A DNA stretch of 64,000 nucleotides from Paracoccaceae bacterium (lineage in GTDB: Bacteria > Pseudomonadota > Alphaproteobacteria > Rhodobacterales > Rhodobacteraceae): positions 1-64,000 of the forward strand of contig JANQPC010000061.1 in assembly GCA_028285485.1 (NCBI GenBank). The letters run 5' to 3'. The position numbers were made by a program, and so were the translations under genes. Shown here piece after piece: positions 10,439 to 26,522 of the stretch. Within the stretch, counting starts at the first letter, position 1, and each line of letters begins with the position of its first letter. Under the pieces are notes generated by a model. The model saw only the letters and a program-made list of their open reading frames with translations. It had not been told where the DNA came from and did no database searches.

Positions 10439-10559
10439 CTAAAGCGGCCAGAAGATCAAGATCGCCGGGATCGAAACCGCAACCACCAGGATCTCCAGAG
10501 GCAGGCCCATCCGCCAGTAATCGCCAAACCGGTACCCGCCCGGGCCCAGGATCAGCGTA
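10439..10559 (-). pseudogene. Displaced native 3' end of the SLC13 transporter gene (tail copy 1)
   Basis: Read on the minus strand this segment encodes STLILGPGGYRF, then [28 protein letters not shown] and a stop. It matches the last 40 residues of the SLC13-type transporter that now ends at 24618. It is GC-rich like the chromosome and lies directly after argP, so it is probably the original chromosomal 3' end, cut off from its gene by the insertions. The longer open frame (to 10744) continues into element sequence and has no transporter character. Equivalent tails are at 23593-23714 and 24618-24738. Confidence 0.85.
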
Positions 10560-10701
10560 CTCTTACTATATTGACCTACCAATATGGCGTTCATAGATAG
10601 GTGGTAGTGCTGATCAGACTTCCGTTCGTTTCCGAGCGTTATCAGATAGATAAGCATGAAGTGAGACAGTAATACTGACCCTATTTTGAGGATCGATTCA
10701 G

Positions 10702-10866
10702 ATGCTTGCAGCCTACGTCGACACACTGATTGCCCTAGGTTCACCTCTAAGTGGCCTCGGGATCCTCATAGCGTTCTCTATCGGTCTTGGAGTGCCGATC
10801 GCGGCCACTTCAGGGGCGCTCAACGCCGTCCTTAGGCTGGTCAGAAGCGGAGCACCTAAGAGATGA
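10702..10866 (+). CDS. Small membrane protein coupled to the recombinase
   Basis: A 54-residue frame starting MLAAYVDTLIALGSP with one long hydrophobic stretch (about residues 5-42, rich in Gly, Ala, Ile, Leu) and a basic C-terminus (RLVRSGAPKR). Its stop overlaps the recombinase ATG (ATGA, 10863-10866), so translation of the two is probably coupled. The sequence TTTTGAGGATCG upstream offers a plausible ribosome binding site. I recognise no family. It could be a regulator of the recombinase, a small toxin or holin-like protein, or only a leader peptide. Confidence 0.6.
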   Translation: MLAAYVDTLIALGSPLSGLGILIAFSIGLGVPIAATSGALNAVLRLVRSGAPKR

Positions 10867-12413
10867 GTAGCCGGCCAACAGAGCGCCCAGCAGAGCGCCA
10901 AGCACGGCGTCCAATCGCGTACAGCTACCGCCGCTTCTCCTCCCCTGCTCAAGCGGAGGGGGACAGTATCCGGCGTCAAACTAAGGCGGCGCAGGAGTGG
11001 TGCGATAGGAACGGCTATGAGTTATCGACTGAGAACTACGAGGATCTCGGGGTTTCTGCCTTCAAGGGAGCCAACGCCGAGGTTGGGGCACTCAGGGCGT
11101 TCTTGGAGGCCATCGAGGAGGGCAAGGTGCCCCAAGGTTCCACCCTCCTGGTGGAGAACCTGGACCGCCTCAGCCGGCAACACTGGCGGCGAGGTTTGGA
11201 TGTTCTCGAGAGCATCACAGAGGCGGGGGTACACCTGGTTACCCTTACCGATGGCAAGCGCTTTGAAGCTGGCAAGCAGATGGATTTCGCAGATGCGATC
11301 ATGATGATCGTGAGCTTTGAGCGGGCCAACAACGAAAGCGTGATGAAGTCTCAGCGCGTGGGCAAAGCGTGGAAAGCCAATGCGGATGCGGTGAAGGAAG
11401 GCCGGCGGAAACGGTCCACTAAGACGCCTGGCTGGATCCGCAATGTCGGTCAGCGGCTTGAGGATCTTGAGTTCGAGGTAATCGAGGATAAGGCCCAGGC
11501 AGTCCGCACCATCTTCGAAGCCTTCGCAAGGGGTGAAGCCTACTCGGCTATCGCACGTGACCTTAGAGAGGCCGGATCCCCCACCATGTCAGGGAAAGGA
11601 ACCTGGACCGGTATGCTTGTGCGCCACATGGTCCGTGAGGTTACGCCATACGGCACACTCCTCATCGGCAAAGGAGCCTCCAAGGACCGCGTAATCGTCG
11701 ATACGGTGTTCAACTACTACCCGAGGATTGTGTCAGAAAGGACTGAAGAGGCTGTAAGAATGCGGCTTCAAGGAGAACCGTCCGAGGAAGAGAACCGCCT
11801 AGCCGCAGCAGCGTTGGGGCGGAAGACGCGTGGGCGACTAGTCGGTGTGCTGAGGTCCCCCTTTAGCGATGGCCCAACGAAGGTGAAGCAGAACGCGAGG
11901 TCCCACTCCTACTATGATGGGGTTCTCAACAAGTACATCGGCAGCGTGGTAATGATCGATCAGATCCTTCTCGACGGCTGGGTGCATGTCGTGAATGCCC
12001 ACGGGGTTGAGACCACACCGGAAGCGGAGGCGCTAGAGCAGCTGATAGCGGAGGCCCAGGATGCCCTCGAGGCCGCCCAAAGCCGCTACGAGCGTCGACC
12101 CTCGGATACCCTCGAAGCTGTCGTATGGGCCGCCCAGGCGGCACTCGAGGAACTCCAACAGGAGGCACTAGCCGCGCGAAAAGGAAGCCTTCTAGATGCC
12201 GAGGTTCCGCTGGACCTAGAGAGCCTCTCGATCCCTGATGCCAACCAATGGGTGCGGCGCCTGGTGGAATGGGCGGTGGTGGAGAAGGAAGGCAGGGGTC
12301 AGGAGGCTAAGGTCAAGCTTAGGTTGGGCTTGAAGAATGGCCTGACGGTGGCTCTGGGTGATCCCTCGATTGGGCTAAGGGCCCGAACAGATGCGAAGGT
12401 GAGCGACGGATAA
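10863..12413 (+). CDS. Large serine recombinase (integrase of element A)
   Basis: A 516-residue site-specific recombinase. The N-terminal resolvase domain (about residues 18-165) opens with AYSYRRFSSPAQAEGDSIRR; Ser26 fits the catalytic serine of the Y-x-R-x-S motif. ENLDRLSRQ is the second resolvase motif. A recombinase domain follows (about 190-300), then a coiled-coil-like Ala/Glu-rich segment (about 385-440). Unlike many large serine integrases it has almost no cysteines, so the usual four-cysteine zinc ribbon is missing. It sits next to the attachment end, as expected for the enzyme that inserted the element into the SLC13 gene. It overlaps its upstream and downstream neighbours by four bases and one base. 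Confidence 0.92.
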   Translation: MSSRPTERPAERQARRPIAYSYRRFSSPAQAEGDSIRRQTKAAQEWCDRNGYELSTENYEDLGVSAFKGANAEVGALRAFLEAIEEGKVPQGSTLLVENLDRLSRQHWRRGLDVLESITEAGVHLVTLTDGKRFEAGKQMDFADAIMMIVSFERANNESVMKSQRVGKAWKANADAVKEGRRKRSTKTPGWIRNVGQRLEDLEFEVIEDKAQAVRTIFEAFARGEAYSAIARDLREAGSPTMSGKGTWTGMLVRHMVREVTPYGTLLIGKGASKDRVIVDTVFNYYPRIVSERTEEAVRMRLQGEPSEEENRLAAAALGRKTRGRLVGVLRSPFSDGPTKVKQNARSHSYYDGVLNKYIGSVVMIDQILLDGWVHVVNAHGVETTPEAEALEQLIAEAQDALEAAQSRYERRPSDTLEAVVWAAQAALEELQQEALAARKGSLLDAEVPLDLESLSIPDANQWVRRLVEWAVVEKEGRGQEAKVKLRLGLKNGLTVALGDPSIGLRARTDAKVSDG

Positions 12414-13147
12414 TGGTCAAGCGTGTCCTGCCAAGTCGAATAAGGTCCCTGTGGCAAGAGGGAGATGATCTGATGCCTTGGGCAGAGGAGGTCCTCGCAT
12501 CTGAGGACTATCTCTCTGATCATTTAGACCTAATCGAAGCCTATATGGACTGCGTCGATCAGGTTAGACGCAAGGGACTAAGAACAGAGCGTTTCATTGC
12601 TATCTGTGGCCTACATCTTCGGACATTTGATGCCTTCGGACACTGCTTGAGAGCCGCGGTGTCTGGGAATTATTCGGGCTGCGCGATGTATGCCAGGGAC
12701 CTTTTGGAAACTGCCTTCTTGATCGACTATCTGCTTGATGAACCCGGTAGGCCCGAAACATGGCTGAGAAGCGATCCAGATACGGCCTACAAGTCATACA
12801 AACCCGCAGCGATAAGGGAGGCCTTGGATCGACGTGACGGCTTCAAAACGATGAAGCGGCGCGATCACTATAGAATGCTTTCTGCACTAGGTGCGCACCC
12901 AACTCCCTCGGCGTTCAACTTGAAACGTGACGCAACCCAGACGATAAACTTCGGGCCCTTCAAACAAGCCGATATGGTTAAGGAGTGCGTGCAGGAGGCC
13001 GCGAAGCTAGCAGTAGTCTTAGGCGGTAGGCTTCAGCATTACTGCATTCTCGAGTTTCCCGACGGAGAACTGTTGTCGAGTAGGCTATCGATAGTTCTGC
13101 AGCGAATGGAAGAAAAGTACTTCAGCCGCGGGCAGAAGGAAGGCTGA
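12413..13147 (+). CDS. Unknown protein coupled to the recombinase
   Basis: A 244-residue protein whose ATG overlaps the recombinase stop by one base (TAATG), so it is the last gene of a three-gene coupled operon. It looks soluble and alpha-helical, with a central segment HLRTFDAFGHCLRAAVSGNY followed by CAMYARDLLETAFLIDYLLD. This pattern reminds me of uncharacterised proteins with helical histidine/cysteine-containing cores, but I cannot name a family. Coupling to the recombinase suggests a role in recombination control or element maintenance; this is inference only. Confidence 0.75.
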   Translation: MVKRVLPSRIRSLWQEGDDLMPWAEEVLASEDYLSDHLDLIEAYMDCVDQVRRKGLRTERFIAICGLHLRTFDAFGHCLRAAVSGNYSGCAMYARDLLETAFLIDYLLDEPGRPETWLRSDPDTAYKSYKPAAIREALDRRDGFKTMKRRDHYRMLSALGAHPTPSAFNLKRDATQTINFGPFKQADMVKECVQEAAKLAVVLGGRLQHYCILEFPDGELLSSRLSIVLQRMEEKYFSRGQKEG

Positions 13148-13188
13148 AAAGCAACCTTCACAAATTCCTCGGGATTTCAAAGGCTTAG

Positions 13189-13450
13189 AATTACACCCCT
13201 CCCATGAGGGTAGTGACACTGGGAAGAAAACGCTATGAACGCACCTTTGATCACTCAGGAACTCGTCGAGTACCTCGAGTTCATCTGCCCGGACCGCTCT
13301 CCGCGGCTCCAGGACAGCGACCGAGAGGTCTGGTTCAAGGCCGGTAAGTTCTAAGTGACCCTCGCAGATAGACATGGGGGGAGAACACCAATTACCCCAC
13401 ACCCATGAATAGGAGCGAAACGACCTGTCCGAATTACAGCCCTCCCATGA
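13189..13450. repeat. Three 19-base imperfect repeats (AATTACAsCCCTCCCATGA)
   Basis: Copies at 13189-13207, 13390-13408 and 13432-13450. The first and third differ at one base; the second differs from the first at three. Two copies lie close together after the small gene at 13235 and one lies just before it. They could be operators or recombinase/replication accessory sites. All three are in the same orientation. Confidence 0.6.
13235..13354 (+). CDS. Small protein, 39 residues
   Basis: A short frame, MNAPLITQELVEYLEF then ICPDRSPRLQDSDREVWFKA, preceded by GGGAAGAAAA as a ribosome binding site. The pattern 'LITQELVEYLE..FPDR.P....DRE.W' recalls a small protein found near structural genes of some podoviruses, where it is longer and continues after the KAG. 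That comparison is from memory and weak. If right, this copy is truncated by its stop. The gene stands alone between repeats. Confidence 0.45.
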   Translation: MNAPLITQELVEYLEFICPDRSPRLQDSDREVWFKAGKF

Positions 13451-13855
13451 ATAAAGACCAGAGCGTCCCCGGCCTTAGCGCCGGAGTTTAACGGCCCACC
13501 GGTCCTCACCCTACACCCTAAGAAACACCCCAACATCGAGTTGGCAGTAGGCGATCACCTACAGCGGTCTCGATGCATCCCTTAGCTGAGACTTGATTGG
13601 AAGGGGCCGGTGCCCCTCCCCTTTGGTCTCCATCTCTGGTCTCCAGCGAAGCGTCAGCCTGGGCACAGCCCCGGGTGATCGCCCGGGGTATAACCCCAGG
13701 TAACACCTCAACACAGCACATCCTGTCCTCCTCATTACATGTGCGGAGGGCGGATTACGGCTGCGTTCCGTCTACTCCCCACGTTCTCATTACATGTGCG
13801 GAGGGCGGATTAGCGCCCACACCCCATTCCCATCACACACGAAGGACCTGTCGCC
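13355..13855. other. Intergenic regulatory stretch in element A
   Basis: 500 bases without a supported gene. It holds two of the 19-base repeats, a weak hairpin CCGGGGT-ATA-ACCCCAGG near 13683-13700, and the two 27-base direct repeats described separately. It separates the recombinase operon from the plus-strand gene set and is the best candidate for the main promoter or an origin. Confidence 0.5.
13731..13812. repeat. Two exact 27-base direct repeats, 55 bases apart
   Basis: CTCATTACATGTGCGG followed by AGGGCGGATTA occurs at 13731-13757 and again at 13786-13812 with no mismatch. It contains ACATGT, a small palindrome. The copies end about 45 bases before the ATG of the zinc-finger-like gene at 13856. 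Exact conservation with a five-turn spacing suggests a protein-binding operator pair or an iteron-like element. Confidence 0.8.
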
Positions 13856-14338
13856 ATGCTCGAAGCGATGGAATGCCCCCATTGCGCCTCGGTGTTCACT
13901 CCTAAACGCAGCAATCAGAAGTTCTGTTCACGTCGCTGCCAACTAGCCTCCAGCCGGAATGCAACCCGAGGCTCCCGAAGCGAAGAGAACGAAGCCCGCA
14001 AGGCCAAACACTTCGAGAGGTCCCAGCGCCTCTTCGAGATGCTCTACTTGGCCCCTCCCCTGGAGCGCCTCGGGGTGATGCAAGAGATCCTCTCCTACGT
14101 CCCCACCGATACTGGTCTCAGGAACATCCTCACCGACCCCGTGCTCCTCTCGGAGCGCCCCCGAGTGGACGGAAGGATGAACATCGCGAAGGCGGCCAGT
14201 GCCTATACGCAGAAGTTCTATGGGATCTCAGGCACCACCTATGTCCGAAAAGTTCGCCTGGGCGACGAGGTCGACGCAATCGAGGTCTCCCCCGTCGTAG
14301 ACACCGCCGAGGCCCCCCAGACCTCAGAGGCTGAATAG
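13856..14338 (+). CDS. Cys-rich zinc-finger-like protein, unknown
   Basis: A 160-residue protein. The N-terminus has MECPHCASVFTP followed by QKFCSRRCQLASSR, a CxxC...CxxxC pattern expected to bind zinc, as in small DNA-binding proteins. The remainder is helical and charged with an acidic C-terminal tail. It is the first gene of the plus-strand set of element A and lies directly after the 27-base repeats, so it may be a regulator of that set. AAGGACCTGTCGCC precedes the ATG. I cannot name a family. Confidence 0.7.
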   Translation: MLEAMECPHCASVFTPKRSNQKFCSRRCQLASSRNATRGSRSEENEARKAKHFERSQRLFEMLYLAPPLERLGVMQEILSYVPTDTGLRNILTDPVLLSERPRVDGRMNIAKAASAYTQKFYGISGTTYVRKVRLGDEVDAIEVSPVVDTAEAPQTSEAE

Positions 14339-14641
14339 TCCGCCCAAAGAATACCCCAGGCCAGCCCTGCACCATCCCCTCTCTATCTCACATGTTCTTC
14401 GTGGGAGGAACGCGGGGCCGGCTCTGGCTATCCCAAGCGACCGCATCGAGGCAGCCCTCGGGGCGAGTGGTGTCGCAACTACCTCGCAGCACCCGCTGCA
14501 TCCACCGAGGATCCCCGGCCCCGAGCAGGTCGCACCCAGCGCCTTCCGAGCGGTTAGCGCCGCCCGCCGCCTGCGATGACGGGCTGGGGTCCTCACCCCT
14601 CCAAACCATCCGCCAATCACCAAAGACACTGGAGCCGCGCC
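14339..14641. other. 303-base gap, no gene seen
   Basis: Frames here are short and in low-quality codon context. The last 60 bases become rich in A and C with few G or T, as in the other leaders of this gene set. No clear hairpin or repeat was noticed. Confidence 0.5.
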
Positions 14642-15625
14642 ATGCCCTGTCCTGTGTGCATCAACCCAGCCTGCGGAGAACTCCGATCGACCGCGGACCC
14701 CCAGGGCGACATCGGGCTCTGCGCGTTATGCCGCCGTGCTTGGTTCCAGTACCGCCTCCCGACAGGCGGCTACTTCCCCACAACCGAGGTGATCCGGATA
14801 GCGTCCAAGCTCCGCAACGAGGAGTTTGTTAAGCCGCCCTCATCGATCGCTGAGTTCAGGGCGGTGGAGTGGATGCGGACAAGGCACAGCGCAGGCCACT
14901 GGGACGACCGCCCCTTATTCAGCCTCCACAAGCTATTCAACAAGACCCATTGGACACGCCGACTACCTCATGTCCTCGTAGGCAGGCGTTACGCACCCCG
15001 CCTGCGTAACCTGGTCGAGGCTTTGGTCCACTATCACCTGGGCAGGTACGTCCTCGGGGCTGGCCCCGGATACGCTTTCTACCTGGCGGGAGCACAGTAC
15101 TTCGGGACCCGAGGATTGATTAGGCCGCCCGGGCAGCGCAACACGGTCCTCGACGCCCGTACAAGGGAGATCCGCGAGGTCCGCGGGAAGACTTACCATC
15201 TGACTACGGGCGACTACCGAAGCATCGGGCGTCGGTGCATTGATGCCCTCGACCGCTTCAACATAGCCCGGAACCCCTTAGGCCAGGAAATGAAGGACCT
15301 GATTTTGGGTCTCCACTTCGAAGGCGTCGCCGCCGGTGATTTTCACCAAGCCGTAGTTGTTCATCCCGGGTCCATCGCAACGTTCGCTCCCGCGGACCAC
15401 CCGTTCTGCCATTGGACACCCAAGAACACCTGGTGGGCACCCCAGTTCGCCAACAAGGTCCGCCGAGGCGGGGGCACGATCGCCCGTCAGTGGCCTGAGG
15501 GTCTCGACCTCTCGGTAGATCAGAAGATCGCCCTCCGCCGCAAGCTGAACGCGCAGTGGGGCAAGATGCCATTCGATCCCGAAGAGACACTCGAGGCCGA
15601 CCCTGGGTGGCTCCTGGAGAGTTGA
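14642..15625 (+). CDS. Unknown element protein with N-terminal Cys knuckles
   Basis: A 327-residue protein starting MPCPVCINPACGE, with a second pair in GLCALCRRAWF, so a four-cysteine zinc site (CxxC...CxxC) over about residues 3-36. The body is basic and aromatic, with FNIARNPLGQEMKDLILGLH and HPFCHWTPKNTWWAP as notable stretches. No enzyme motif is evident. A zinc-binding head on a large basic body suggests nucleic acid binding, perhaps replication or transcription, but this is a guess. The ATG at 14642 was chosen because the Cys motif starts there and the leader is A/C-rich. Confidence 0.7.
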   Translation: MPCPVCINPACGELRSTADPQGDIGLCALCRRAWFQYRLPTGGYFPTTEVIRIASKLRNEEFVKPPSSIAEFRAVEWMRTRHSAGHWDDRPLFSLHKLFNKTHWTRRLPHVLVGRRYAPRLRNLVEALVHYHLGRYVLGAGPGYAFYLAGAQYFGTRGLIRPPGQRNTVLDARTREIREVRGKTYHLTTGDYRSIGRRCIDALDRFNIARNPLGQEMKDLILGLHFEGVAAGDFHQAVVVHPGSIATFAPADHPFCHWTPKNTWWAPQFANKVRRGGGTIARQWPEGLDLSVDQKIALRRKLNAQWGKMPFDPEETLEADPGWLLES

Positions 15626-15675
15626 TGATCACAAGAAACGCAATCTGATCGACAAACACATAGGAGGCCGCAGCC

Positions 15676-16596
15676 ATGAGCATCCCGCCCCCTGGTGACC
15701 CCGCCACACTTGAGGATCTCCTGGCCGCCAGAGAGGCCGCCAAGGCCGCCGGAGATGACCGAGAGGCCACCCGCCTCAATAGCCGCTACAAGCGCCTCCG
15801 GGCCAAGGTTGGCGGCCTAGTCACGAAGCAATGTTTGGCTTGCGGTGTGACGTACCAGGGCACTCCTGCGTCCACCCGGTGCGACACATGCAAGTCCGAA
15901 GGCCGGATGGTCTCCTCCGCCTCCCAGCGTGCCGGCTACTTCATCGCCTTCGGTGCGATCCCAAGGCCCAAGCCACACGCCGGCCCAGCAATCCCGAACC
16001 TCCAGACCCGCATCTATCGCTGCAAGGAATGCGTCCGACTTGAGAAGGAAGCCAAGGCCGAGCGGAAGCGGATCTTCGAGGCTGAACTCGCCAGCATCTC
16101 CGAGATGGACGACCGCAGCCTAGAGAAACTCGAGGCTGAACTCGAGGAACAGACCAGGAGCCAGTGGCGGAGAACCGTCGGGGAGCACCTCGAGCTACTC
16201 CACCGGCGCGACAAGAAACCACGAGGATACAAGCAAATGACCAAAGCCACAGCGAAGAGCCCCCTAGGCATCATATGGCTCCACCTCTGCGACCATGACG
16301 GCCAGGCCGCCGCCGCGTTCCACACGCCGCTCCAGGTCTCCCATGAGGACAACGCCACACTCCTCCTCACGTATCACCGTCTGCGTCTCAAAGGTTTCAG
16401 ACCAGATGCGATCGCGAAGTTGTGCCCCAAGGCTCTCCTCGAGCCAAAAGCCCAGGATGCCCTCACGGGTCTGCCCATAGTAACCGAGGAGGATGACCGT
16501 GAGGAGCCCACCGGAGACCTAGTCGAGGTCGCTCAGGAGATCCTGGCCCAGCAAGACCGAGAACTCGAAGCCCGCGCCCTGGGTCTCGCTCATTAA
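15676..16596 (+). CDS. Unknown element protein with zinc-ribbon-like Cys pairs
   Basis: A 306-residue protein preceded by a good ribosome binding site (AGGAGG). An N-terminal helical segment rich in Ala/Arg is followed by KQCLACGVTYQG and TRCDTCKSEGR, a four-cysteine zinc ribbon near residues 53-75, and one further CKEC pair near residue 117. The middle is a charged coiled-coil-like segment (about 115-175). The C-terminus is acidic. It resembles HNH-like or ribbon-containing phage proteins in its head but I see no HNH active-site histidines. Unknown function. Confidence 0.7.
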   Translation: MSIPPPGDPATLEDLLAAREAAKAAGDDREATRLNSRYKRLRAKVGGLVTKQCLACGVTYQGTPASTRCDTCKSEGRMVSSASQRAGYFIAFGAIPRPKPHAGPAIPNLQTRIYRCKECVRLEKEAKAERKRIFEAELASISEMDDRSLEKLEAELEEQTRSQWRRTVGEHLELLHRRDKKPRGYKQMTKATAKSPLGIIWLHLCDHDGQAAAAFHTPLQVSHEDNATLLLTYHRLRLKGFRPDAIAKLCPKALLEPKAQDALTGLPIVTEEDDREEPTGDLVEVAQEILAQQDRELEARALGLAH

Positions 16597-16638
16597 TACC
16601 AACACCACAACACAACCAACCACAGAGGAAACACCACT

Positions 16639-17379
16639 ATGGCCGTAATCACAGCAAGCACCAACTCAGAGACCGGCGAGCAGCAAATAACCGAGCAGGC
16701 GTCTGTCAAAGGCCGGGCCTCCAGCGAGGACTACAACCCCTACGGCGTCACCGCCCGCGGATCACGCGGCTATGTTGTCGCCCAAACTCAGGATCAACTC
16801 TCGGACAATGATATCGTGAAGTTCGAGGGCATGGACCTGACGGTTGCCCAGGCGAAGGAATATGGCGTCCTTGATCAGATCTTCGGCAAGCTGGACCAGG
16901 AGGCATCCGGCGACGCACCCCAAGACAACTCAGAGCCCGCCGAAAGCGCACCTGCCGACCCTACCGTGGCCAGCCTACAGGCCGCCCTGGAAGCAGGCGA
17001 GATCACCGCGGAAGAGGCTCAACTATACGACACAATCAACGCGGAACTCGAATTGGCGGGCATAGACACCCAGAGCGCACTCGAGGCAATCGAAGAGATC
17101 GCCAAGGGGGGCAATCCGGAAATCTCAGGCGACGCCCGCAGTATGCTCGAAAGGATCCACCAAGACGTCACCGCTGCCTCCACGAAGGCCGCGCACGCCG
17201 AACTGGGTCCCGAAGCCTATGCACAGCTCCAAGGCTGGGCGTCTGTTTCGTCTGACGTGGACGGGGCGATACGAGGGTTTGCTGCAAAACGCGCCACAGG
17301 TGACCGCTCAATAGGCACTTGGAGCGACTTCTACACGACTGTGAGCAATCTCATGGCAGGAGGGGAGTTCGGTAATTGA
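16639..17379 (+). CDS. Acidic scaffold-like protein, unknown
   Basis: A 246-residue, strongly acidic protein (MAVITASTNSETGEQQITEQ at the start) with a disordered Pro/Ala/Glu segment around residues 95-115 and helical flanks. The pattern of an acidic, Gln/Glu-rich N-terminus, helical repeats and a short 'AYAQLQGWAS' near the end resembles podoviral scaffolding proteins in general make-up, not in any motif I can align. Leader: CACAGAGGAAACACC. An acidic DNA-mimic or assembly role are alternatives. Family unknown. Confidence 0.65.
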   Translation: MAVITASTNSETGEQQITEQASVKGRASSEDYNPYGVTARGSRGYVVAQTQDQLSDNDIVKFEGMDLTVAQAKEYGVLDQIFGKLDQEASGDAPQDNSEPAESAPADPTVASLQAALEAGEITAEEAQLYDTINAELELAGIDTQSALEAIEEIAKGGNPEISGDARSMLERIHQDVTAASTKAAHAELGPEAYAQLQGWASVSSDVDGAIRGFAAKRATGDRSIGTWSDFYTTVSNLMAGGEFGN

Positions 17380-17738
17380 CCCGCAAGTTCCAGCCGTTAG
17401 CGTAGAAGTCCTTGTGTGCCGATTTCTCTGTTTGCCAGTACCCGCGGAGAGGCAGCCCAGGTCCCTGAGCCACTCCGCGTGTGCTAATTGGGCTTGCCTC
17501 CCGCAACCACACTGACGTCGAGCAAGACGCCAGGCGAGGCACGTGCAAGAGGTCCAGTGCCTAAGGCGAGTGGCGGGCAATAGACCACTTCGTAGAGGCT
17601 GCGAAAGCCAATAGCTCTGTGGCGCTTCTAACCCGCGCATAGTTATTCGAGTTGAAGACCCGCGCTCCTCCGCTAGATCCCCACAAATTTGCCACTTTGC
17701 TACGGTCCAGTGGTGACGCTCATTTGATGGAGCTACAC
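17380..17738. other. 359-base gap, no gene seen
   Basis: Short frames only. The sequence is less GC-rich than the genes around it. No repeat or strong hairpin was noticed. A promoter for the secreted-protein gene at 17739 may lie near the end. Confidence 0.4.
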
Positions 17739-18122
17739 ATGAAGTCTGCTCTTGCTGCCGCCGTTTTCGCCGGCTTGGCCACTTCAGCGACGGCTACGCC
17801 TGTCGATCTGACTGGCAACTCATGCGTTCAGATGACCAGCCGCGGCCCGCTGACTTGGGAGTTCTACGGAGACGTCACCATCCGATACTTTGGGGACGGG
17901 AGTGTCTCGAGCCTACCCCGCGCTGGCGTCGGGGCCTACGAAAGGTACAACTATCAGGGCGAGTGGCAGGCAATCTACTACTTCTTTGACAGTGGTGATG
18001 GCCTGAAGGTCAGGGTTCTCTCTAGGGCCGGCTTAGTTGTCCGAATTGAGAACCCCAACGCTCCTCTCGAGTTGAATGTTATCGACTTCGATGCAGCCTG
18101 CTTTCCCCTCTCGGGGCAGTAA
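17739..18122 (+). CDS. Small secreted protein, unknown
   Basis: 127 residues with a signal peptide (MKSALAAAVFAGLATSATAT, cleavage likely after ATA) and a beta-rich mature part containing two cysteines (NSCVQM near the N-terminus and DAACFPL near the C-terminus) that could form a disulfide. GGAG lies seven bases before the chosen ATG; an ATG twelve bases earlier is possible. It is probably periplasmic. In an element this could be a surface-exclusion, lysis-related or cargo protein. No family recognised. Confidence 0.65.
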   Translation: MKSALAAAVFAGLATSATATPVDLTGNSCVQMTSRGPLTWEFYGDVTIRYFGDGSVSSLPRAGVGAYERYNYQGEWQAIYYFFDSGDGLKVRVLSRAGLVVRIENPNAPLELNVIDFDAACFPLSGQ

Positions 18123-18329
18123 TACACTCACGCAAATCCTGGCCGCCAACCACTACATCCCGACGTTACATTAGAGCCTTACCCTACAGGCCCGTGGATT
18201 AGTGAGTGTTTAGTTACTGGTCGTGGCAAGGAGGCCAGCCATAGTCCCGTGTGTCGCACAAGCTGCGCTCATGGCCGGTCCCTTGCCACTCCCTGCTGCC
18301 GATAAAACTATACCAACAGGGCAATCGCC
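18123..18329. other. 207-base gap, no gene seen
   Basis: Holds no supported frame. A region around 18190-18300 is more AT-rich and could contain a promoter for the next genes. Confidence 0.4.
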
Positions 18330-18611
18330 ATGACAAACCCCTCGTTTCTACGCGAGTGGGTCTGGGACACCGATGTCGAACTTGAGGTGACGCAGGCGTA
18401 TGTAAACCGGACCCTGCGCAATCACCATCTCGCAGATCAGATCATCGAGGGCCGGCGCCCGAAATCGGATCTCCATCTGATCTACCAACCGGACACAGAA
18501 GAGGAGCCACAGCAATGTCCAGGCTCGACATACGCCGTGCGCCCACGCGGCTCCGCACGGACTACTTCAAGACGCGCACCCGGGACCTCTCAGAGATCAC
18601 CGGCGTCCTGA
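18330..18611 (+). CDS. Small protein overlapping the amidase-like gene
   Basis: 93 residues. The first 60 (MTNPSFLREWVWDTDVELEV onward) look like ordinary protein; the last 30 lie inside the next gene in another frame and are Arg/Ser/Pro-rich. The overlap is 97 bases. It could be a real small gene whose C-terminus is dictated by the overlap, as phages sometimes show, or a decayed gene. Confidence 0.45.
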   Translation: MTNPSFLREWVWDTDVELEVTQAYVNRTLRNHHLADQIIEGRRPKSDLHLIYQPDTEEEPQQCPGSTYAVRPRGSARTTSRRAPGTSQRSPAS

Positions 18612-19057
18612 TCAAGTTCGCCCCCACGATCCCGGACCCACGCATCGATGCCGCGTTCTTTGACGCAGTTCTCCCGAGAAAAGGCTACTTCGGGGTGCCA
18701 TACCACTACGTATGCAAGATGGACGGCACGGTACAGGTCGCCAGAGATCCCCTCACAGTCTCCACTGTAGGCCACCGCATCCACGTCCCCCACAACCTTA
18801 CGATCGGGGTGGTAGGCGGCCTGGACGAGGAGACAGGCGATCGGGTCGACACAATGACAGACGCCCAGCGCGGTGCCGTCGAGGAGTTACTCCAGCGCCT
18901 GGCTGACTACCTGGGCCGGCCCCTCGAAGTAACCGACCTCACCGTGGGATGGTCTAGACACACCAACACCGCACAGGTCTCCCTCGACGCCGAAGAGGCA
19001 GCCGATGAAGCCCGTGAGGAGGCCCTGGCCGCGGCAGAGGCGCTCTTCCACAACTGA
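18515..19057 (+). CDS. T7-lysozyme-like amidase fold protein lacking zinc ligands
   Basis: 180 residues. The central segment KGYFGVPYHYVCKMDGTVQV with DPLTVSTVGHRIHVPHNLT and then IGVVGGLDEETG follows the amidase_2/PGRP layout (in T7 lysozyme: 'GYHFVIKRDGT', a His/Gly-rich loop and 'IGVCLVGG'). TDAQRGAVEELLQRLADYLG matches the helix after it. In active amidases the first zinc histidine follows 'VHCS' near residue 20; here that strand reads ITGVLIKFAPT, with no His, and the C-terminal His-x(7)-Cys pair is not seen either. It may be an inactive peptidoglycan binder or a regulator rather than a lysin. The C-terminus is a long Ala/Glu helix. Confidence 0.65.
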   Translation: MSRLDIRRAPTRLRTDYFKTRTRDLSEITGVLIKFAPTIPDPRIDAAFFDAVLPRKGYFGVPYHYVCKMDGTVQVARDPLTVSTVGHRIHVPHNLTIGVVGGLDEETGDRVDTMTDAQRGAVEELLQRLADYLGRPLEVTDLTVGWSRHTNTAQVSLDAEEAADEAREEALAAAEALFHN

Positions 19058-19094
19058 CCACCACAAACAACAAGAACAAGAAAGCACTCAAACC

Positions 19095-19814
19095 ATGCTC
19101 ACAACACAGAAACGGACCCCCGATGAGGGGGCCCGCCAATCCCGCACGTCTAAACCTCTGAAGACACCCACGGCGGTCTCCGAGTTGCACGCCGAGGCGA
19201 TCGCTCTCGCCGAAGAGATGGAGCGCGACTACGGCCCAAGCCATACCGCACAGGACCACGCCGAGTTGCGGCGCCTGGATGGCCTCGCGATCGACGGTAA
19301 GCTCACCAAGAGTGAACTCGAGAGGATCCGCAGAAAGCTCTTAGGTCCCTCGCAAGCTCACCTTCCAGAAGGCGCATCCCTGATTGGGAGGCCCCGGTCC
19401 TTCGCCATCGATCACAGCACTGGCAAAGTGGACCCCCGCTTCTGGGAAGTCCCCGGCTACCTCGCCCGACGTAAGTCTATCCTCAGGAACCGGGGGATCA
19501 CCCGCAGGGAGCGCCAGACCATCGCCAAGGCAGGGAAGGCCTCCTCGGCACACTCCACGGTCGCCCACGCCCACCTCTGGCGGGACACTGAAGTTGAACG
19601 CCAGAAGACGGACGCAGCCCTCACGAAGGGGGCCAACCAGGAACCCTACAGGAAAGAGGCCGCCCAGTCGGTCCTAGAGGAAGCACAGGTAGCAGCTGAA
19701 AGGCGCAGTGTCGTTCTCCGGGACGCACTCAAGGCGAACCCTGAGACCGGCCAGGAACGCTCCTGGGCCGCCATTCTGAGGCGCCCGGAGTTCGACCGTT
19801 CCTGGGAGCCCTGA
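19095..19814 (+). CDS. Basic, helical element protein, unknown
   Basis: 239 residues, rich in Arg, Lys, Ala and Glu, starting MLTTQKRTPDEG after an A/C-rich leader. No cysteine motif, membrane segment or enzyme signature was seen. The middle has REGITRRERQT-like basic stretches that could bind nucleic acid. It lies between the amidase-like gene and the 202-residue gene. Family unknown. Confidence 0.6.
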   Translation: MLTTQKRTPDEGARQSRTSKPLKTPTAVSELHAEAIALAEEMERDYGPSHTAQDHAELRRLDGLAIDGKLTKSELERIRRKLLGPSQAHLPEGASLIGRPRSFAIDHSTGKVDPRFWEVPGYLARRKSILRNRGITRRERQTIAKAGKASSAHSTVAHAHLWRDTEVERQKTDAALTKGANQEPYRKEAAQSVLEEAQVAAERRSVVLRDALKANPETGQERSWAAILRRPEFDRSWEP

Positions 19815-19970
19815 ATTAAGGGGTTAGGACCCCGAAAATCGTCCGTATTCTACTCCTAATATCAATAACTTACAAGGCGCAAACTTGGCACGAGCTACTT
19901 TCCTACTTGTGCCAGGTTTTGAGGCCTACACGAGCCGCTCCGCGACCCCTTAAAACAGGACAAAACCACC

Positions 19971-20579
19971 ATGCCAAAAGACCACGCACCAGACGACCAA
20001 TCCAATATCCTCGAACTTGCCAATACCCCCGCACATATGCAGATCGGGCCGGACGCGGTCACTCTCCTCGCCGGCTATGGCCTCAAAATATTCGGCAACA
20101 GGTATGCCCTCTGGGATTCCCTTGTCCAGGTAGCATCGGACGGCAGCATAGCCAGACGTGTAAACCCGGCGCACATCTTCTCAACCGACCACAGCTTCAG
20201 CACCTACGGGGCGTTTCTCAGGGAATACCTCTTGCCCCGTGCAGAGGAGATCTCAAGCAGGCTCAAAGACCTCTCTGACGTCCAGCGCCTTCACACCTTA
20301 AATGGGCTGGTTGAACGCTCGACTGACTGCCCGCGGACCTTCTGGTTGCTATCCAGCAACTACGTCCGTCCCTACCTATTCCCAGGCGCTTACGCCCCCG
20401 GCACTCGCCGCCGGATCGACCGCGTCCGCTACAAGATCCACGCCCACCGTTCGCATCAGAACGGAAAGTTCATCTCACCCCGGAGCCTCGACAAGGCCGA
20501 GGTTGAGAAGTGGCAGGCAGAAGTGGCGGCAAGTCTTCCCAACTACGACGTGGAGCGCTTTGCTCCAGTGATCGCCTAA
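19971..20579 (+). CDS. Unknown element protein, 202 residues
   Basis: A mixed alpha/beta-looking soluble protein with an N-terminal MPKDHAPDDQSNILELAN and aromatic patches (FWLLSSNYVRPYLFPGAYAP). No motif recognised. The leader CAAAACCACC lacks a strong Shine-Dalgarno, as several genes of this set do. It starts the last coupled group (this gene, then 86 and 110 residues). Confidence 0.65.
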   Translation: MPKDHAPDDQSNILELANTPAHMQIGPDAVTLLAGYGLKIFGNRYALWDSLVQVASDGSIARRVNPAHIFSTDHSFSTYGAFLREYLLPRAEEISSRLKDLSDVQRLHTLNGLVERSTDCPRTFWLLSSNYVRPYLFPGAYAPGTRRRIDRVRYKIHAHRSHQNGKFISPRSLDKAEVEKWQAEVAASLPNYDVERFAPVIA

Positions 20580-20599
20580 ACAGAGAGGATATCGAGACC

Positions 20600-20860
20600 A
20601 TGCCCACTAAGCCCACTAAGAAGGTACCGACCAAACCATCGCATGAACTCCTGGCTGACCTCTTCGCCGCGGCCCATGTGATTCATGAGGTTGCCGAGAG
20701 AGAACACGAGGAAGCAGCCGCCAACCGCCGTCCGGGTGCCTACTACGATCCTCGGGAGAACTTCACGCGGCAGATGAGAGCGACTTGTGAGCAGCTTGAG
20801 GGACTTGAGGTGGACTTTAGGCGGACCATGCGTGCCAATGGGATCGAGGTGAAGCCATGA
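20600..20860 (+). CDS. Small helical protein, unknown
   Basis: 86 residues starting MPTKPTKKVPTKPSHELLAD, with a Lys/Pro-rich head and a charged helical body. AGAGAGGATATCGAGACC provides a ribosome binding site. It overlaps the next gene by four bases. No family recognised. Confidence 0.6.
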   Translation: MPTKPTKKVPTKPSHELLADLFAAAHVIHEVAEREHEEAAANRRPGAYYDPRENFTRQMRATCEQLEGLEVDFRRTMRANGIEVKP

Positions 20861-21189
20861 ACAGGCACCCTGATTACAGCACGCTGCTCCGCATAAGGGA
20901 GAAACTTCAAGCCTCCAAGGCGTCCGTCGAGGGCGCCTTCGGCTTCGGAGGCGACTACGTTATCATGAAGGGCGCCGAGGAGGATCCTGAGCCGTTCGTG
21001 TTTTCACGAGATAGCTCTCTATGGACCCAGCACTTCTCACAGGCACTGGCAGTGCACCCTGGGTTCGACGTGGGGTTTCTTGGGGGACACGTGGTTGGAC
21101 TAGAGGAGGCACGTAAGGCGATACTTGATACACTTGAGCGGCAGGCCAATCCCGTGTTTCGGTTCTTATCACCTGAGTGGCACCCTTAA
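20857..21189 (+). CDS. Small soluble protein, unknown
   Basis: 110 residues starting MNRHPDYSTLLRIREKLQAS. Coupled to the previous gene (ATGA). It contains FGFGGDYVIMKGAEEDPEPF but no recognisable site. It ends four bases into the convergent membrane-protein gene. Confidence 0.6.
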   Translation: MNRHPDYSTLLRIREKLQASKASVEGAFGFGGDYVIMKGAEEDPEPFVFSRDSSLWTQHFSQALAVHPGFDVGFLGGHVVGLEEARKAILDTLERQANPVFRFLSPEWHP

Positions 21190-21623
21190 TATGGGTCGAT
21201 GCCCGGTCGGAAAGTCTTGCACTCCTCACGAGCATAACAAACGCCCTCCCCCCGAGTACGTTCGGGCGCTGGATCATAGCCCAAGTATCCTCGCGCAATG
21301 CAGCCATTGTTATGGTGTTCGTAGGGACCGGTGAGTCTCGGAACGCGGCAGTCATCGTAAGGAACTGCTTCGGCTACGGTGCCTTGGACTTCTTCTTCGC
21401 CGGCGGAACCCCAGAGCGGGAAGAAGCCAGCAACTGCCACAAGAAAGGCCGCGGGGCCACCTACGCGCAGTCCAAGCGTCGAACGATTCCGGAAAGCGGG
21501 CACCTTTAAAGGGCCAATTTCGAGACCACCGAACCACGGGGCCAATGCAATGCTCAGCGCTATGAGAACGATGGCAGTTGCAAGAGCCTCCGGGACACCA
21601 AAAAACGCGTAGGTGCTTTCCAA
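21186..21623 (-). CDS. Membrane protein with Cys-containing tail, unknown
   Basis: 145 residues, on the minus strand and convergent with the plus-strand set. Two hydrophobic segments (about 13-31 and 53-72) anchor it, and the C-terminal half outside or inside carries four cysteines (DDCRVP, NNGCIARG, GVCYAREECK). It may form disulfides if exported. The opposite orientation suggests separate regulation, perhaps a cargo or exclusion function. No family recognised. Confidence 0.6.
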   Translation of the reverse strand: MESTYAFFGVPEALATAIVLIALSIALAPWFGGLEIGPLKVPAFRNRSTLGLRVGGPAAFLVAVAGFFPLWGSAGEEEVQGTVAEAVPYDDCRVPRLTGPYEHHNNGCIARGYLGYDPAPERTRGEGVCYAREECKTFRPGIDPY

Positions 21624-22108
21624 GTTCAGTTCCCCATTAGGCGTATGGCCGGAACTTTCTTCATCGGTTCATCCACCCAAATCATGCAACACACTAATGG
21701 TACCCTAGATTATGCACATATGATTCGAATGAAAGACTTACTGGCAGATTCAGCGTAGAACCCATCTCAGGTAAGAGGAGCCGCTTGGTGCCCGGACCAC
21801 CAGTTCTTGCTACTAGCACCAAATCAACTGCTAGTCGGATAAGAGCAGATAATCTGGAGGGAGTCATAGACTGCCCCTAGGTGAGCTTAACGGTGTCCCT
21901 TTGTCTTGCCCGCGGTGGCCAGGAACAGACCGCCACTCGACGATCGGGACGCCTGTTCGCTGCCCATCCCTGGCCGACCGGGTTCCACTCACTTCGCCCC
22001 GGCCACATGTGCTAACTGTTCTCTGTCGCCCAGCTCTCAACCTAAAGCGACAAAAGGCCGCCCGGAGTTGTACTGCCTGGGTCCCATGTGAACGTGAAGA
22101 AAGCACCC
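21624..22108. other. About 485 bases with no supported gene
   Basis: Several short frames on both strands, none with convincing protein character. The AT-rich part near 21640-21790 is a likely promoter region for the minus-strand membrane protein. Confidence 0.45.
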
Positions 22109-22312
22109 ATGCCCGACCGAAGAGGCCGCAAAGGCCGACTTGAAGATCTGATCCCTAGGGACCGCGTAAGGTGGGCTCGGGAAATCTGGGCGGAACGTAA
22201 GGAGTGCGCGAGGACGTCCACGGGGATCTGGATGCTCAGGGAGGCAGAGAAAATCTTGGGGTTACCTGAGGAGGCGGTAGACGAAGTCTTGAGGGTTCAT
22301 GGGGTGCACTAG
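22109..22312 (+). CDS. Small basic protein, possible DNA-binding
   Basis: 67 residues starting MPDRRGRKGRLEDLIPRDRV, strongly basic at the N-terminus, then a helical segment (MLREAEKILGLPEEAVDEVL) that could be a helix-turn-helix-like unit. GAAGAAAG lies before the ATG; a GTG at 22088 would add seven residues. Could be an excisionase-like or regulatory protein of element A; not proven. Confidence 0.5.
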   Translation: MPDRRGRKGRLEDLIPRDRVRWAREIWAERKECARTSTGIWMLREAEKILGLPEEAVDEVLRVHGVH

Positions 22313-22379
22313 CGGGTTAAATCATTTGCCTCTTCTAGCTCGTTTGATGGTTGGCTACGCTTGCAACTTCTAGCAGGCG

Positions 22380-22440
22380 ACTAACGGCGGCTATGCGGAC
22401 AAAGTGAGCTTTCGCTGCAGCTGCGCCAACGTCAGTTTTT
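22380..22440. repeat. Rhodobacterales-type intergenic repeat fragment
   Basis: GGCTATGCGGACAAAGTGAG followed by CTTTCGCTGCAGCTG matches the core (CTATGCGGACGAAGC) seen also near 36504, 38108 and 38745. It is a degenerate intergenic repeat; its presence in element A suggests that this end picked up chromosomal or plasmid DNA. Confidence 0.55.
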
Positions 22441-22541
22441 TGATCCCTGGTCCATATGATCGCGTGCGATGTCACAGGCAGATTTGAAGACGGAAAGCTG
22501 GACAGCAGTAACGGAAAAGAGCATCAACCATACAAGTCGGA

Positions 22542-23066
22542 ATGCCTGAGTTGTGTTCACAAATGCGACTACACGCCTGTCCGTTTGCCTTCGCAATTGC
22601 ATCCTTCTTCACATGGGTGCCGTCCGGACTTGAGAGCCAGGGACGCAACGAAGGCTTGAGGCTTCTTCAAGATTGTATTGCGCGGCACGGCTTTGCAGAG
22701 ACCGCGACCATAAAGCCCAACAAGGGTGAAAATGTCATCGAGGTGGAAATTACAAATGTCTGGGACATAACAATAACCGGTGTGATGGTGGTGCCCTTGG
22801 GTCCAGCAGCAGAGGAGCACTTCTCTGGAGGCTGGTTCGTTTTCGAGTTTGATCCTTTTTTCTTACGTCCAGGTGAAGTGAGGACACACACGCACAGCTT
22901 CCAAGGGCTAGCGCATGCTTTTCCTGAGGAGATCGAGATAGAAATTGCCGTTGTTAATGTTCGAAACATTCGGCCCAGATGGATTCTGGCCGATTTCGAC
23001 TCGCCGTGGCCATACATATCAGAAGCAGAACGTTTTCAATTTGCAGAGCGTGTGCTCTGTCAGTGA
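22542..23066 (+). CDS. Probable secreted or membrane-anchored protein, unknown
   Basis: 174 residues. The N-terminus (RLHACPFAFAIASFFTWV) is hydrophobic and could be a signal peptide or anchor. The rest is beta-rich with an immunoglobulin-like run: VIEVEITNVWDITITGVMVV, then GGWFVFEFDPFFLRPGEV. Codon use is more AT-rich than in the chromosome. It follows the intergenic repeat and may be cargo near the right end of element A. The start could also be the ATG at 22563. Confidence 0.5.
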   Translation: MPELCSQMRLHACPFAFAIASFFTWVPSGLESQGRNEGLRLLQDCIARHGFAETATIKPNKGENVIEVEITNVWDITITGVMVVPLGPAAEEHFSGGWFVFEFDPFFLRPGEVRTHTHSFQGLAHAFPEEIEIEIAVVNVRNIRPRWILADFDSPWPYISEAERFQFAERVLCQ

Positions 23067-23592
23067 GACACTATGAACCAAGGCTGGCCTCGAGTGTCTT
23101 CGAACCGGGCATTCGCGTGTTACGCAGCATCAGTCAACACGGGCTCAAAGCCGACCTTCGACGCATCCGCAAACGAGGACGCCCGTCGCTAGAGGGGCTG
23201 CCAACGTGGACCTCTATGGGCCCTCCAGCCACACTTCACGCCCCCCCCCCGAAGCCGACCTCAAAGAGCACCCAAAGAGCAACTCCAGTCGCCGCCGTTC
23301 AGATCCCGGCGTCAATAAACTAGCTCAGTCACCAGAACTCAGGATAGCTGTCGCTAGAGCATGCACCCCTGCACACCCCCAAAATCGCTCAAGGCACACC
23401 CCTAGGCACACCTCATGCTATGCCAGCCAAATCAGAAAATCGGCGCCTCGCGTGCAGCCTTGGGAGCAGCCATGCGATCAACCCAGGGAAGCCTTTAAGC
23501 ACACCTTCAGCGCCCTCGGGTTACACCCTCTGTGACACGAACAACCTCCATTTCCCAATGAAACATGGGCTCCGGCGATGATATCGGATCAC
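23067..23592. other. Right-end non-coding region of element A
   Basis: About 525 bases without a supported gene. It includes a C-rich run (CCCCCCCCCC near 23230) and, from about 23480, sequence that aligns with the region before tail copy 3 (24505-24617): shared blocks GTGACAC, CCTC, CCAAyGAAACAwGGG and GATGATA in the same order and spacing. Confidence 0.55.
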
Positions 23593-23714
23593 CTAAAGTG
23601 GCCAGAACACTAGTATTGCAGGGATCGATACGGCCACCACCAGGATCTCAAGTGGTAGCCCCATGCGCCAGTAGTCCCCAAACCGGTAACCACCCGCAGA
23701 AAGAATAAGCGGTA
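23593..23714 (-). repeat. SLC13 gene 3' end carried by element A (tail copy 2)
   Basis: Minus-strand translation: [40 protein letters not shown], stop. It matches 35 of 40 residues of the native tail at 10439. It is not joined to a transporter gene now, because element B lies between it and the 5' part. It marks one attachment site of element A. Confidence 0.82.
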
Positions 23715-24008
23715 TACACTCTAAGTGTACTCTATGTCCTCTATAGGTGGACCTGAGGTCCTCTTAGATTGGACTGTCCGTTTCACTGATGTGGACTACT
23801 CAGATCCACCAGCCTCACCCACCACTCATAACCTCACTTGCCGTTTCCGTAGAGGTGCCACGAGCAGCGCGGCGTGCGCTAAGGAGATCCGACTTCCGCA
23901 CAACAATACCTGCGGTTGTCGTGACGCCACGTCAAGTTGGCCGGCGCAAACTGGAACCGCTAGTCTCGATACTTGCGCCTATTGCAAACGTAAACCCCAG
24001 GGCTGACT

Positions 24009-24287
24009 ATGGACGACCGCCACAACTTCGGCACCGAGTACCTTGAGCTTGAGTTGGCTGCCCTCGGTGAAGGCTTCGATGAGACCAGGCTCCAGGCAGT
24101 GAGAAAAGCTCTAGGTGAACTCGCGTTGCGTCTTGAAATGGCGCCAAGTGAATTGCTCACTACCGAAAGGGGTCAGAAGATTACCAGGCTCGTTTTGACC
24201 GCTTCACGCCTTTCTAGAGCCGACTATGACAAGCTCTTGGACTTGGCCAGAGAGCTGCGTTCGAAAGCGGAGGCCAAGATCAACTGA
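24009..24287 (+). CDS. Small protein of element B, unknown
   Basis: 92 residues starting MDDRHNFGTEYLELELAALG, mostly helical and charged, with no cysteines or membrane segment. It is the only frame in element B with good protein character. Possible regulator; no family recognised. Confidence 0.55.
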   Translation: MDDRHNFGTEYLELELAALGEGFDETRLQAVRKALGELALRLEMAPSELLTTERGQKITRLVLTASRLSRADYDKLLDLARELRSKAEAKIN

Positions 24288-24617
24288 TTATGCGGAAGCG
24301 CCGATTTCGCCAGAAAAACCAGAGCGGGTAATCATACGTAAGGCCTCCCACAATTCCCCCCGTGGGGGCCCTTGCACCCTTGGAATTCCAATTGAGCCAC
24401 CCCACCCCCACCCTGCTTTGCTAGGTCAGCGCAGTCCTTCAAAGGTATGCATGCGCAGCGCCACGGGATCAGGAAAGAGCCCTGGCAAGTGAGGCTTCAA
24501 GTCCACCCTGAGCACGCCACAAAGACACTCAGGGTCACACCTCATGTGACACAAGCGGCCCTCAAACCCCAACGAAACAAGGGACATGGGGATGATACAT
24601 AACCATCCCTGGGTTAC
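24288..24617. other. 330-base gap at the end of element B
   Basis: No supported gene. Includes GTGGGGG/CCCCCAC-type short inverted arms near 24358-24410 and, from about 24505, the stretch that is similar to the same position in element A. Confidence 0.45.
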
Positions 24618-24738
24618 TCAGAGGGGCCAGAAGAAGAGAATGGCGGGAATGCTCACGGCCACGACGAGGATCTCTACAGGCAGCCCCATACGCCAGTAAT
24701 CCGAAAAGCGATATCCCCCTGCTGATAGTATTAATGTA
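24618..24738 (-). repeat. SLC13 gene 3' end supplied by element B (tail copy 3)
   Basis: The functional end of the transporter gene. By hand alignment it shares about two thirds of its bases with tail copy 1 but 34 of 40 residues. Most changes fall on wobble positions, the pattern of selection for the peptide. Confidence 0.8.
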
Positions 24739-26399
24739 TTGTTCTTATGCCCGATCGGCGTGAGAAAGGCGCAGGAGGCCGCCACGGCCACCGCCATCAG
24801 GAAGGGGTCGGGATCTACCCCCAGCGCGCGCGCCATCTCGATCCCCACGGGCGCGGCGACAATCGCGGTGGCGGTGTTGTTGAGCACATCCGAAAGCGTC
24901 ATCGTCACCACCATGAGCGCGGTCAGAACCGCCCAGGCCGGCAGCCCCTGGGTGGCGGTGACCAGCCAGCCCGCGATCAGTTCGGTGCCGCCCGAGGCCT
25001 CCAGCGCCGCGCCAAGGGGGATCATAGAGCCCAGAAGCACCACCACGGGCCATTCGATATGGGTGTAAAGCTCGGAAAGCGGCAGCACGCGGGCCAGCAC
25101 ATAGGCCACCACCACGATGCCCAGCGCCACCGGCAGGTAGATCAGCCCGAGCGAGGCCGCGATCACCGCGCCCGCAAAGATCCCGATCGCGAGCCAGACT
25201 TTCGAGCTCTCGGTCACCGCCAGCCCGCGATCGGCCAGCGGCAGGGTGCCGAGCCAGTCGGCCACATCCCGTTCTGCGCCCTCGGGCACGAGGAGAAGAA
25301 GAATATCGCCGGGCTGCACCACCGTCTTGCGCACCCGGCTGGTGATCCGCCGCCCCTGGCGCGCGATGCCCAATAGCACGGTGCGGCGGCGCCAGGACAG
25401 ACCGATGGCCTGCGCCGTCTTCCCTGCAATCCGCGCGCCCACGGGCACCACGGCCTCCACAAGGGTTACGCCCGCGCCCTCTGCGCGAAGCAGATCCTCG
25501 CGCTGCTTTTCGGCATAGTCGAGGCTCAGCGCGGCGCGAAACTCGTCCAGCGCATCGGGCACAGCCTCGATCACCAGCGCATCGCCCGCTGCAAGCGGCG
25601 TGTTGCGCTGGCGGCCGTAAAGCCGCTTGCCGCCGCGCACGAGGCCCAGGATAGCCACGTCGTTTTTCTCGGCCGCCTCGTCAAGCTCGGAAATCCGCTG
25701 GCCGATCAGCTTCGATCCCTCCGGAATGGTGAGCTCCGCAAGATAGGCCGCAATCTCTTCCATCGCGGCGCCAGCCGCATCGGCAGTCTCACCCTGCGGG
25801 ATCAGCCGCCAGCCCAGAAGCGCTACGAAGGCGAGCCCCGCAATCGCCACCACCCCGCCCACCGGCGCGAAATCGAACATCGCGAAGCTTTCGCCCAGCG
25901 CATCCTCCCGGATCCCGGCAATGATGATGTTGGGGGGCGTGCCGATGAGGGTGACCATACCGCCGAGGATCGTGGCAAAGCTCAGCGGCATCAGCGAAAG
26001 CCCAGGGGCCCGCCCCGCCTTCCGCGCCGTCTGGATATCGACGGGCATCAGAAGCGCCAGCGCCGCCACGTTATTCATAAAGGCCGAAAGCACGCCCCCC
26101 ACACCGCCCATGATCGCGATATGGGCGCCAAGCGCGCGCGTGCTGTCCACCAGCGTGCGGGTGATCAGATAGACGGCGCCGGATCGCACCAGCCCGGCGG
26201 ACACCACCAGCACCAGCGCCACCACCAGCGTGGCGGGATGGCCGAAGCCCGCGAAGGCCGCGTCTGCCGGCACGACCCCCAGCACAACGCCCAGCATCAG
26301 CGCCCCGAAGGCCACGATATCGTAACGAAAGCGCCCCCAGATCAGAAGCACGAAGACCGCAGCGAAAAGCGTGAAAAGGATTGTCTGATCGGTGGTCAT
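24618..26399 (-). CDS. SLC13-type transporter with two TrkA_C domains; 3' end replaced by element B
   Basis: 593 residues. Membrane segments flank a cytosolic insert (about residues 205-380) that holds two TrkA_C (RCK_C)-like domains, for example [20 protein letters not shown] and [39 protein letters not shown] is the first conserved Na+/substrate motif of the divalent anion:sodium symporter family, repeated as [19 protein letters not shown]. The substrate may be sulfate or a dicarboxylate. The last 40 codons (24618-24738) are element-derived and less GC-rich than the rest, yet encode [14 protein letters not shown] and the final FWPL, so the protein looks intact. The ATG at 26399 avoids a poorly conserved 23-residue extension. 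Confidence 0.88.
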
Positions 26400-26522
26400 C
26401 AGCCCCTGCCCGTCGTGCCGCCAAGCCAAGCCGATGCGGTTGCCGAATGCAATGGCCCCCGCTTGCACCCCACCCGCCCGTTTCCTAAAAGAACGCCGGT
26501 TTCAGGCTTTGGGAGGCGCGTT

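Follow-up and report, generated by a model that had tools for sequence, protein, structure and literature searches.

Rhodobacteraceae integrative elements that share a zinc-knuckle protein and possible links to T7-type podoviruses

A marine bacterium of the Paracoccaceae carries a plus-strand gene set within an integrative element of about 13 kb (~10,560-23,590 of the window, by which we mean the whole 64,000-nucleotide stretch of DNA analysed). Our best explanation, to which we give roughly even chances of being right, is that this gene set forms the body of a site-specific element from a new family of Rhodobacteraceae islands that exploits or interferes with T7-type podoviruses in a satellite-like manner. 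This reading is suggested by the recombinase and the triplicate target-gene ends, by the co-occurrence of the proteins p160 and p320, by gp16-type genes close to p320, by the likeness of p320 to phage scaffolds, by a lysozyme homologue that lacks zinc ligands, by a conserved noncoding site and by defence cargo. It is weakened by the lack of a packaging gene, by single-sequence scaffold matches that fall short of significance, by the presence of gp16-type proteins in just two relatives (one of them fragmentary), by the lack of an IMG/VR match to the core, and by the remaining genes having no relatives.

There are three copies of the 3′ end of a DASS/SLC13 transporter gene (its last ~40 codons) in the window, located at 10439, 23593 and 24618 by a direct-repeat search. 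The ORF and the repeats mark the DASS/SLC13-type transporter gene at 24618..26468 (minus strand), whose 3′ end lies at 24618, as the integration target. The outer copy (10439..10557, minus strand; direct-repeat family D1) aligns to codons 574-616 with 79% protein identity and forms the left boundary of the element, and the second copy (23593..23711, minus strand) has 90% protein identity to codons 578-616 and forms the right boundary of the main element. A large serine recombinase of 516 amino acids is encoded at 10863..12413 on the plus strand (Pfam Resolvase E 4e-20 and Recombinase E 4e-10; phrog_95 integrase E 2e-48). Together, the serine recombinase and the duplicated DASS 3′ ends demonstrate site-specific integration by an element-encoded recombinase. 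The DASS 3′-end copies have diverged, which suggests that every insertion carried in its own replacement for the end of the gene. Homologues of the target gene are intact in relatives. A LysR gene adjoining DASS, sought as an empty site, was not found in the stretches of relatives examined, and therefore the empty-site comparison draws only on single intact DASS ends. A shared DASS attachment site was also considered for one relative (locus L018) and dropped, as its element sits between murA and EamA/LysE/DASS genes.

The recombinase gene is followed on the same strand by a gene for p244 (12413..13147), a weakly DUF5677-like protein (E 0.0017, below the Pfam cutoff). Three noncoding 20-nucleotide repeats (at 13188, 13389 and 13431, within 13188..13450 of the plus strand; direct-repeat family D3) are also located 3′ of the recombinase gene and are possible iterons. 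Similar repeats follow a resolvase gene in loci L027 and L066, where they might be iterons or res sites. A second tandem mini-element or remnant of ~0.9 kb (23712-24617), with a single small gene at 24009-24287, lies between two of the DASS 3′ ends and apparently uses the same attachment site. A second DASS-type transporter gene (32667-34391, minus strand, 32% identity) is found ~6 kb from the integration target. A 40-nucleotide stretch (22390-22429) that is possibly a dispersed repeat is 90% identical to sequence close to the end of C7, a contig belonging to this genome, and low GC content (54-56%) at 37001-39000, around a tRNA-Tyr gene (38818-38902), might indicate a further insertion.

The initial annotation had proposed eight or more genes in one direction, and such a set is real. 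There are 8 plus-strand ORFs of at least 150 amino acids in 13150-21200, whereas 200 dinucleotide shuffles average 1.8 such ORFs and never exceed 5. Their GC3-GC2 bias ranges from 0.18 to 0.33, and all but one of the ORFs exceed the shuffle maximum of 0.20. Downstream starts, judged from the leaders, were preferred over the longest-ORF starts at 14642 (instead of 14576), 17739 (17652), 19095 (19005) and 20600 (20510). The leaders are A/C-rich as annotated, whereas the Shine-Dalgarno sites, which had been described as weak, are variable in strength and are clear for p306 and p180.

Three zinc-binding-like proteins had also been proposed, and Cys-pair motifs are indeed present in p160 (CPHC..CSRRC), p327 (14642..15625; CPVC..CALC) and p306 (15676..16596; CLAC..CDTC..CKEC), the latter two being orphans. 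The additional plus-strand orphans are p127 (17739..18122), which is signal-peptide-like and matches no family, p239 (19095..19814), p202 (19971..20579), and the small proteins p86 (20600..20860) and p110 (20857..21189), whose genes overlap by 4 nucleotides and are thus coupled as predicted. The ORF at 18330-18611 includes p62 (18330..18514, plus strand), which runs into p180 in another frame.

Matches in Pfam and PHROGs are limited to the recombinase, a zinc knuckle of NinG type in p160 and the similarity of p180 to T7 lysozyme. The searches made revealed no relative of p327, p306, p180, p239, p202, p86 or p110, except for distant phage lysozymes in the case of p180. A concatenated set of the orphans, without p180, matched none of the 50,697 phage and 72,556 plasmid records searched. 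When 394 genomes of the bacterial family were searched with the concatenated set, just two candidates were scored per genome, and thus the negative result for genes other than p160 is a weak one; single-protein searches of about 100-160 genomes were likewise negative for the other window genes. Conservation of the whole gene set elsewhere was rejected, as relatives other than phage lysozymes were found only for p160 and the p246 family. The initial annotation had named two findings that would count against it, strong matches to a known plasmid or ICE family and a lack of co-occurrence elsewhere. Neither applies to p160 and p246, which recur jointly in several genomes. Among the products scanned with Pfam and PHROGs there is no capsid, portal, tail, terminase, primase or known packaging gene, in accord with what had been noted, and Pfam detects no relaxase or T4SS domain among the products of the window element. 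Thus, the full virion gene set is absent from the element.

The Cys4 zinc-knuckle and helical protein p160 (13856..14338, plus strand) is a core component of the element family. Its relatives are present in 14 of the 394 family genomes, including the window's own, and no other member of the concatenated set had relatives there. Identity among the relatives reaches 63%. There are 15 loci with relatives in a scan of 84,980 species genomes (GTDB), and their hosts include Oceaniglobus, Ruegeria, Pseudoruegeria, Yoonia, Roseovarius, Poseidonocella, Primorskyibacter and others. The AlphaFold model of p160 has a pLDDT of 90.5; assignment to a known fold was rejected, as searches of PDB and BFVD gave no convincing match. 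IMG/VR holds no match to the element core beyond short, weak p160-like matches.

A conserved 25-nucleotide site (yATTAyATrTGCGGAGGGCGGATTA) flanks the p160 gene. In the window, repeat and matrix searches locate it within two exact 27-nucleotide copies on the plus strand (13731-13757 and 13786-13812). The 13 best sites found with a position weight matrix in 614 kb are all located within 500 nucleotides of a p160 gene and represent 12 elements, including that of the window, although the matrix was built from known instances and most of these sites belong to its training set. Those sites had originally come to light in scans of entire loci that took no account of where p160 lies. The site is not found in IMG/VR or in 148 other family genomes, and occurs at chance level only in phage records. 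A promoter for a phage RNA polymerase that drives the operon is not supported, because neither the strand of the site nor its side relative to p160 is fixed, and because IMG/VR lacks it and phages have it at chance level only. A site of the origin or packaging type would better fit this variable orientation.

The acidic protein p246 (16639..17379, plus strand) had been annotated as scaffold-like. With an HMM for the p320 family that was built without p246 and excluded the window, p246 scores 17.1 bits (E 9e-4 among 5823 ORFs), and the best of 2000 shuffled versions of p246 scores 8.6 bits. This difference places p246 in the p320 family as a divergent member, and with it the window element in the element family. 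A separate search recovered p320 from 5 of the 394 genomes of the bacterial family and from 13 of 390 genomes of the order. The predicted p320 model (pLDDT 68) has a helical core with additional beta-hairpin/helix units at both ends, and its first-ranked match in BFVD is a capsid assembly protein from an uncultured tailed phage (prob 0.93, E 0.07); the corresponding protein of phi15 ranks seventh. Comparison to T7-type scaffolds with hhalign gives 26.1-26.9, as opposed to 8-19 for reversed, column-shuffled and unrelated alignments. A scaffold HMM of 91 sequences places three p320 members at the top of 5823 ORFs, at a nonsignificant E of about 0.2 and with two of the three coming from one genome. 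Across 19 genomes, phrog_1052 recovers no p320 gene even at an E cutoff of 10, following the first-look filter of the search tool, and a PDB search with the p320 model returns generic helical matches only (best Z 5.1). The profile and fold signals exceed all controls but have a low absolute probability, and we consider it probable that the p320 family is related to T7-type scaffolding proteins. The annotated acidity of p246 is correct, and its scaffold likeness is weak but reproducible at the level of the p246/p320 family, the relationship being less certain for p246 itself.

The initial annotation of p180 (18515..19057, plus strand) as T7-lysozyme-like was correct. The protein is a true homologue (phrog_822 E 4e-11; PDB 1ARO_L E 6e-7; alignment with the T3 and Lo5R7ANS amidases), although it is without zinc ligands. 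T7 lysozyme (gp3.5; 1ARO, 1LBA) binds zinc through His17, His122 and Cys130 (PMC4573324). The similarity extends over ~130 residues with ~30% identity and the same motif order, whereas p180 has longer N- and C-terminal ends, carries Lys in place of His17 and Gln in place of Cys130, aligns no His at position 122, and replaces Lys128 with Thr. Because the zinc ligands are lost, an active endolysin was rejected, and p180 is probably not a lysin. In T7 lysozyme, K128T strongly reduces amidase activity, and inhibition of the polymerase is intact or nearly so in Y46F, K128T and H36N (PMC4573324). Thus, an amidase-dead homologue could still act on a T7-type polymerase.

A virion-type protein is found among the relatives. 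Locus L046 encodes a full-length gp16-type internal virion protein of 1282 amino acids (phrog_342 E 3e-154) that is closest to proteins of pelagiphages and Mesorhizobium phage Lo5R7ANS. Its gene is directly upstream of p329, which is the p320/p246 homologue of this locus. Just two strong matches in 19 genomes extend into the C-terminal portion of gp16, namely that of L046 and fragments in L072 that lie ~2 kb from the p320 gene, and thus both are within ~2.5 kb of a p320 gene. The gp16-type protein and the lysozyme never occur in the same element.

Overall, p160 and p246 form the shared core of Rhodobacteraceae integrative elements from about 25 genomes (Ruegeria, Yoonia, Roseovarius, Pseudoruegeria and others). 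Proteins of the p160 and p320/p246 families are found together in L013, L016, L066, L068, L072, L074, L024 and the window. The p160 neighbourhoods include small resolvases, tyrosine integrases and the recurrent proteins p140 (ribbon-helix-helix-like by eye), p98, p320 and p77. The window element has all three features that define the family, namely a p160 homologue, a p320-family protein and the flanking 25-nucleotide site. The family is apparently undescribed and is absent from Pfam and PHROGs. Relatives often have defence genes nearby, among them Lamassu (LmuB E 3e-184), restriction systems (type I restriction-modification and a type IV enzyme), a DruE-like helicase and a KAP-type NTPase. 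The defence loci adjoin the p160/p320/p140 core (L027 11004-13859; L030 13429-18702; L066 10772-14227; L067 1-7076; L075 1-5958; L029 11420-12802), and part of this cargo may be neighbouring rather than inside the elements, whose limits were drawn for some relatives only. In a Cytobacillus locus (L038 4634-6636), a homologue of the helicase-like protein of L046 (phrog_2467) immediately precedes a p160-like zinc protein, and this pairing may therefore reach beyond the Rhodobacteraceae.

The satellite-like reading that we favour would operate as follows. Infection by a T7-like phage would trigger excision of the element via its recombinase, and the element would replicate from the repeat-rich region before p160, where p160 might serve as a DNA-binding initiator or packaging factor. 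Perhaps p246/p320 acts on the helper capsid as an alternative scaffold-like protein, in the manner of CpmB in SaPIs, and some members could supply their own gp16-type ejection protein, such that element DNA would enter helper particles. The zinc-less p180 may damp the T7-type RNA polymerase of the helper instead of lysing the cell. Tentatively, the elements could even represent a previously unrecognised class of satellites specialised on T7-type podoviruses, equipped with a T7-type alternative scaffold, in some members a gp16-type ejection protein, and a lysin-dead lysozyme that inhibits the helper RNA polymerase. The initial annotation had offered a phage-related satellite or a new class of integrative element. 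This is supported in part: the element is integrative, its family is missing from Pfam and PHROGs, and the link to phages is real, while packaging by a helper is inferred.

The main rival is an anti-phage interference island that is never packaged, in which decoy T7-type proteins (scaffold-like, ejection protein and dead lysozyme) poison T7-like assembly and transcription beside ordinary defence, and which spreads by its integrase and other transfer. The defence cargo of the relatives, the failure to find packaging genes and the suitability of a zinc-less lysozyme as an inhibitor all agree with this scenario, but the conserved noncoding site and the recombination and DNA-binding core around p160 suggest a replication or packaging cycle of its own, and we regard the scenario as doubtful. 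An ordinary integrative or mobilisable island, with a core (p160, p140 and p320) for replication, maintenance or recombination, unrelated phage-like cargo, and a convergent scaffold similarity due to helical and acidic character, would account for the variable cargo, for gp16 in only two relatives, and for a scaffold signal that from sequence alone is below the usual thresholds. It is nevertheless improbable, given that both gp16 C-terminal matches adjoin p320, that independent fold and profile signals agree on scaffolds, and that Pfam detects neither a relaxase nor a T4SS domain in the window element. A T7-type prophage in decay, stripped of its genes for head, tail and packaging, is very improbable even though T7-type homologues exist, because the small core, which lacks capsid genes, is preserved intact in different genera, the window ORFs retain strong codon bias, and gp16 and the lysozyme are not in one element.

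A family of integrating elements with relatives of T7-type ejection, scaffold-like and lysozyme proteins beside defence genes would open two questions to testing: whether the T7-like phages that abound in the sea are accompanied by satellites, and whether inhibition of the polymerase by T7 lysozyme was recruited alone as a weapon. A search of the open-access literature on phage satellites together with Autographiviridae gave a paper on helicases in immunity and no described T7-type satellite system, and the only satellites with virulent helpers named in PMC10803314 are PLE and PICMI. The elements resemble known phage satellites (SaPI/PICI, P4-like, PLE and PICMI) in being site-specific integrative elements of ~10-15 kb with an incomplete virion set, a capsid-assembly-like protein and variable defence genes. 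In contrast to these satellites, AlpA, primase, Stl and TerS are not found in the element, the virion-type relatives are T7-type, and the p160 and p320 core is not in Pfam or PHROGs. The window element also uses a large serine recombinase, whereas most relatives have a tyrosine integrase. PICMIs show that virulent phages in the sea can have small satellites that carry variable defence genes (PMC10803314), but their core differs from that described here. In SaPIs, CpmB is an alternative scaffold (PMC6893505). Unlike T7-type phages, the elements are without portal, capsid and terminase, and unlike the T7-type scaffold gp9 (phrog_1052), p320 carries terminal beta-hairpin/helix units and is missed by the phrog_1052 profile. 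However, the p320 family shows a weak resemblance to gp9 in profile and fold, and L046 encodes a clear homologue of T7 gp16 (phrog_342).
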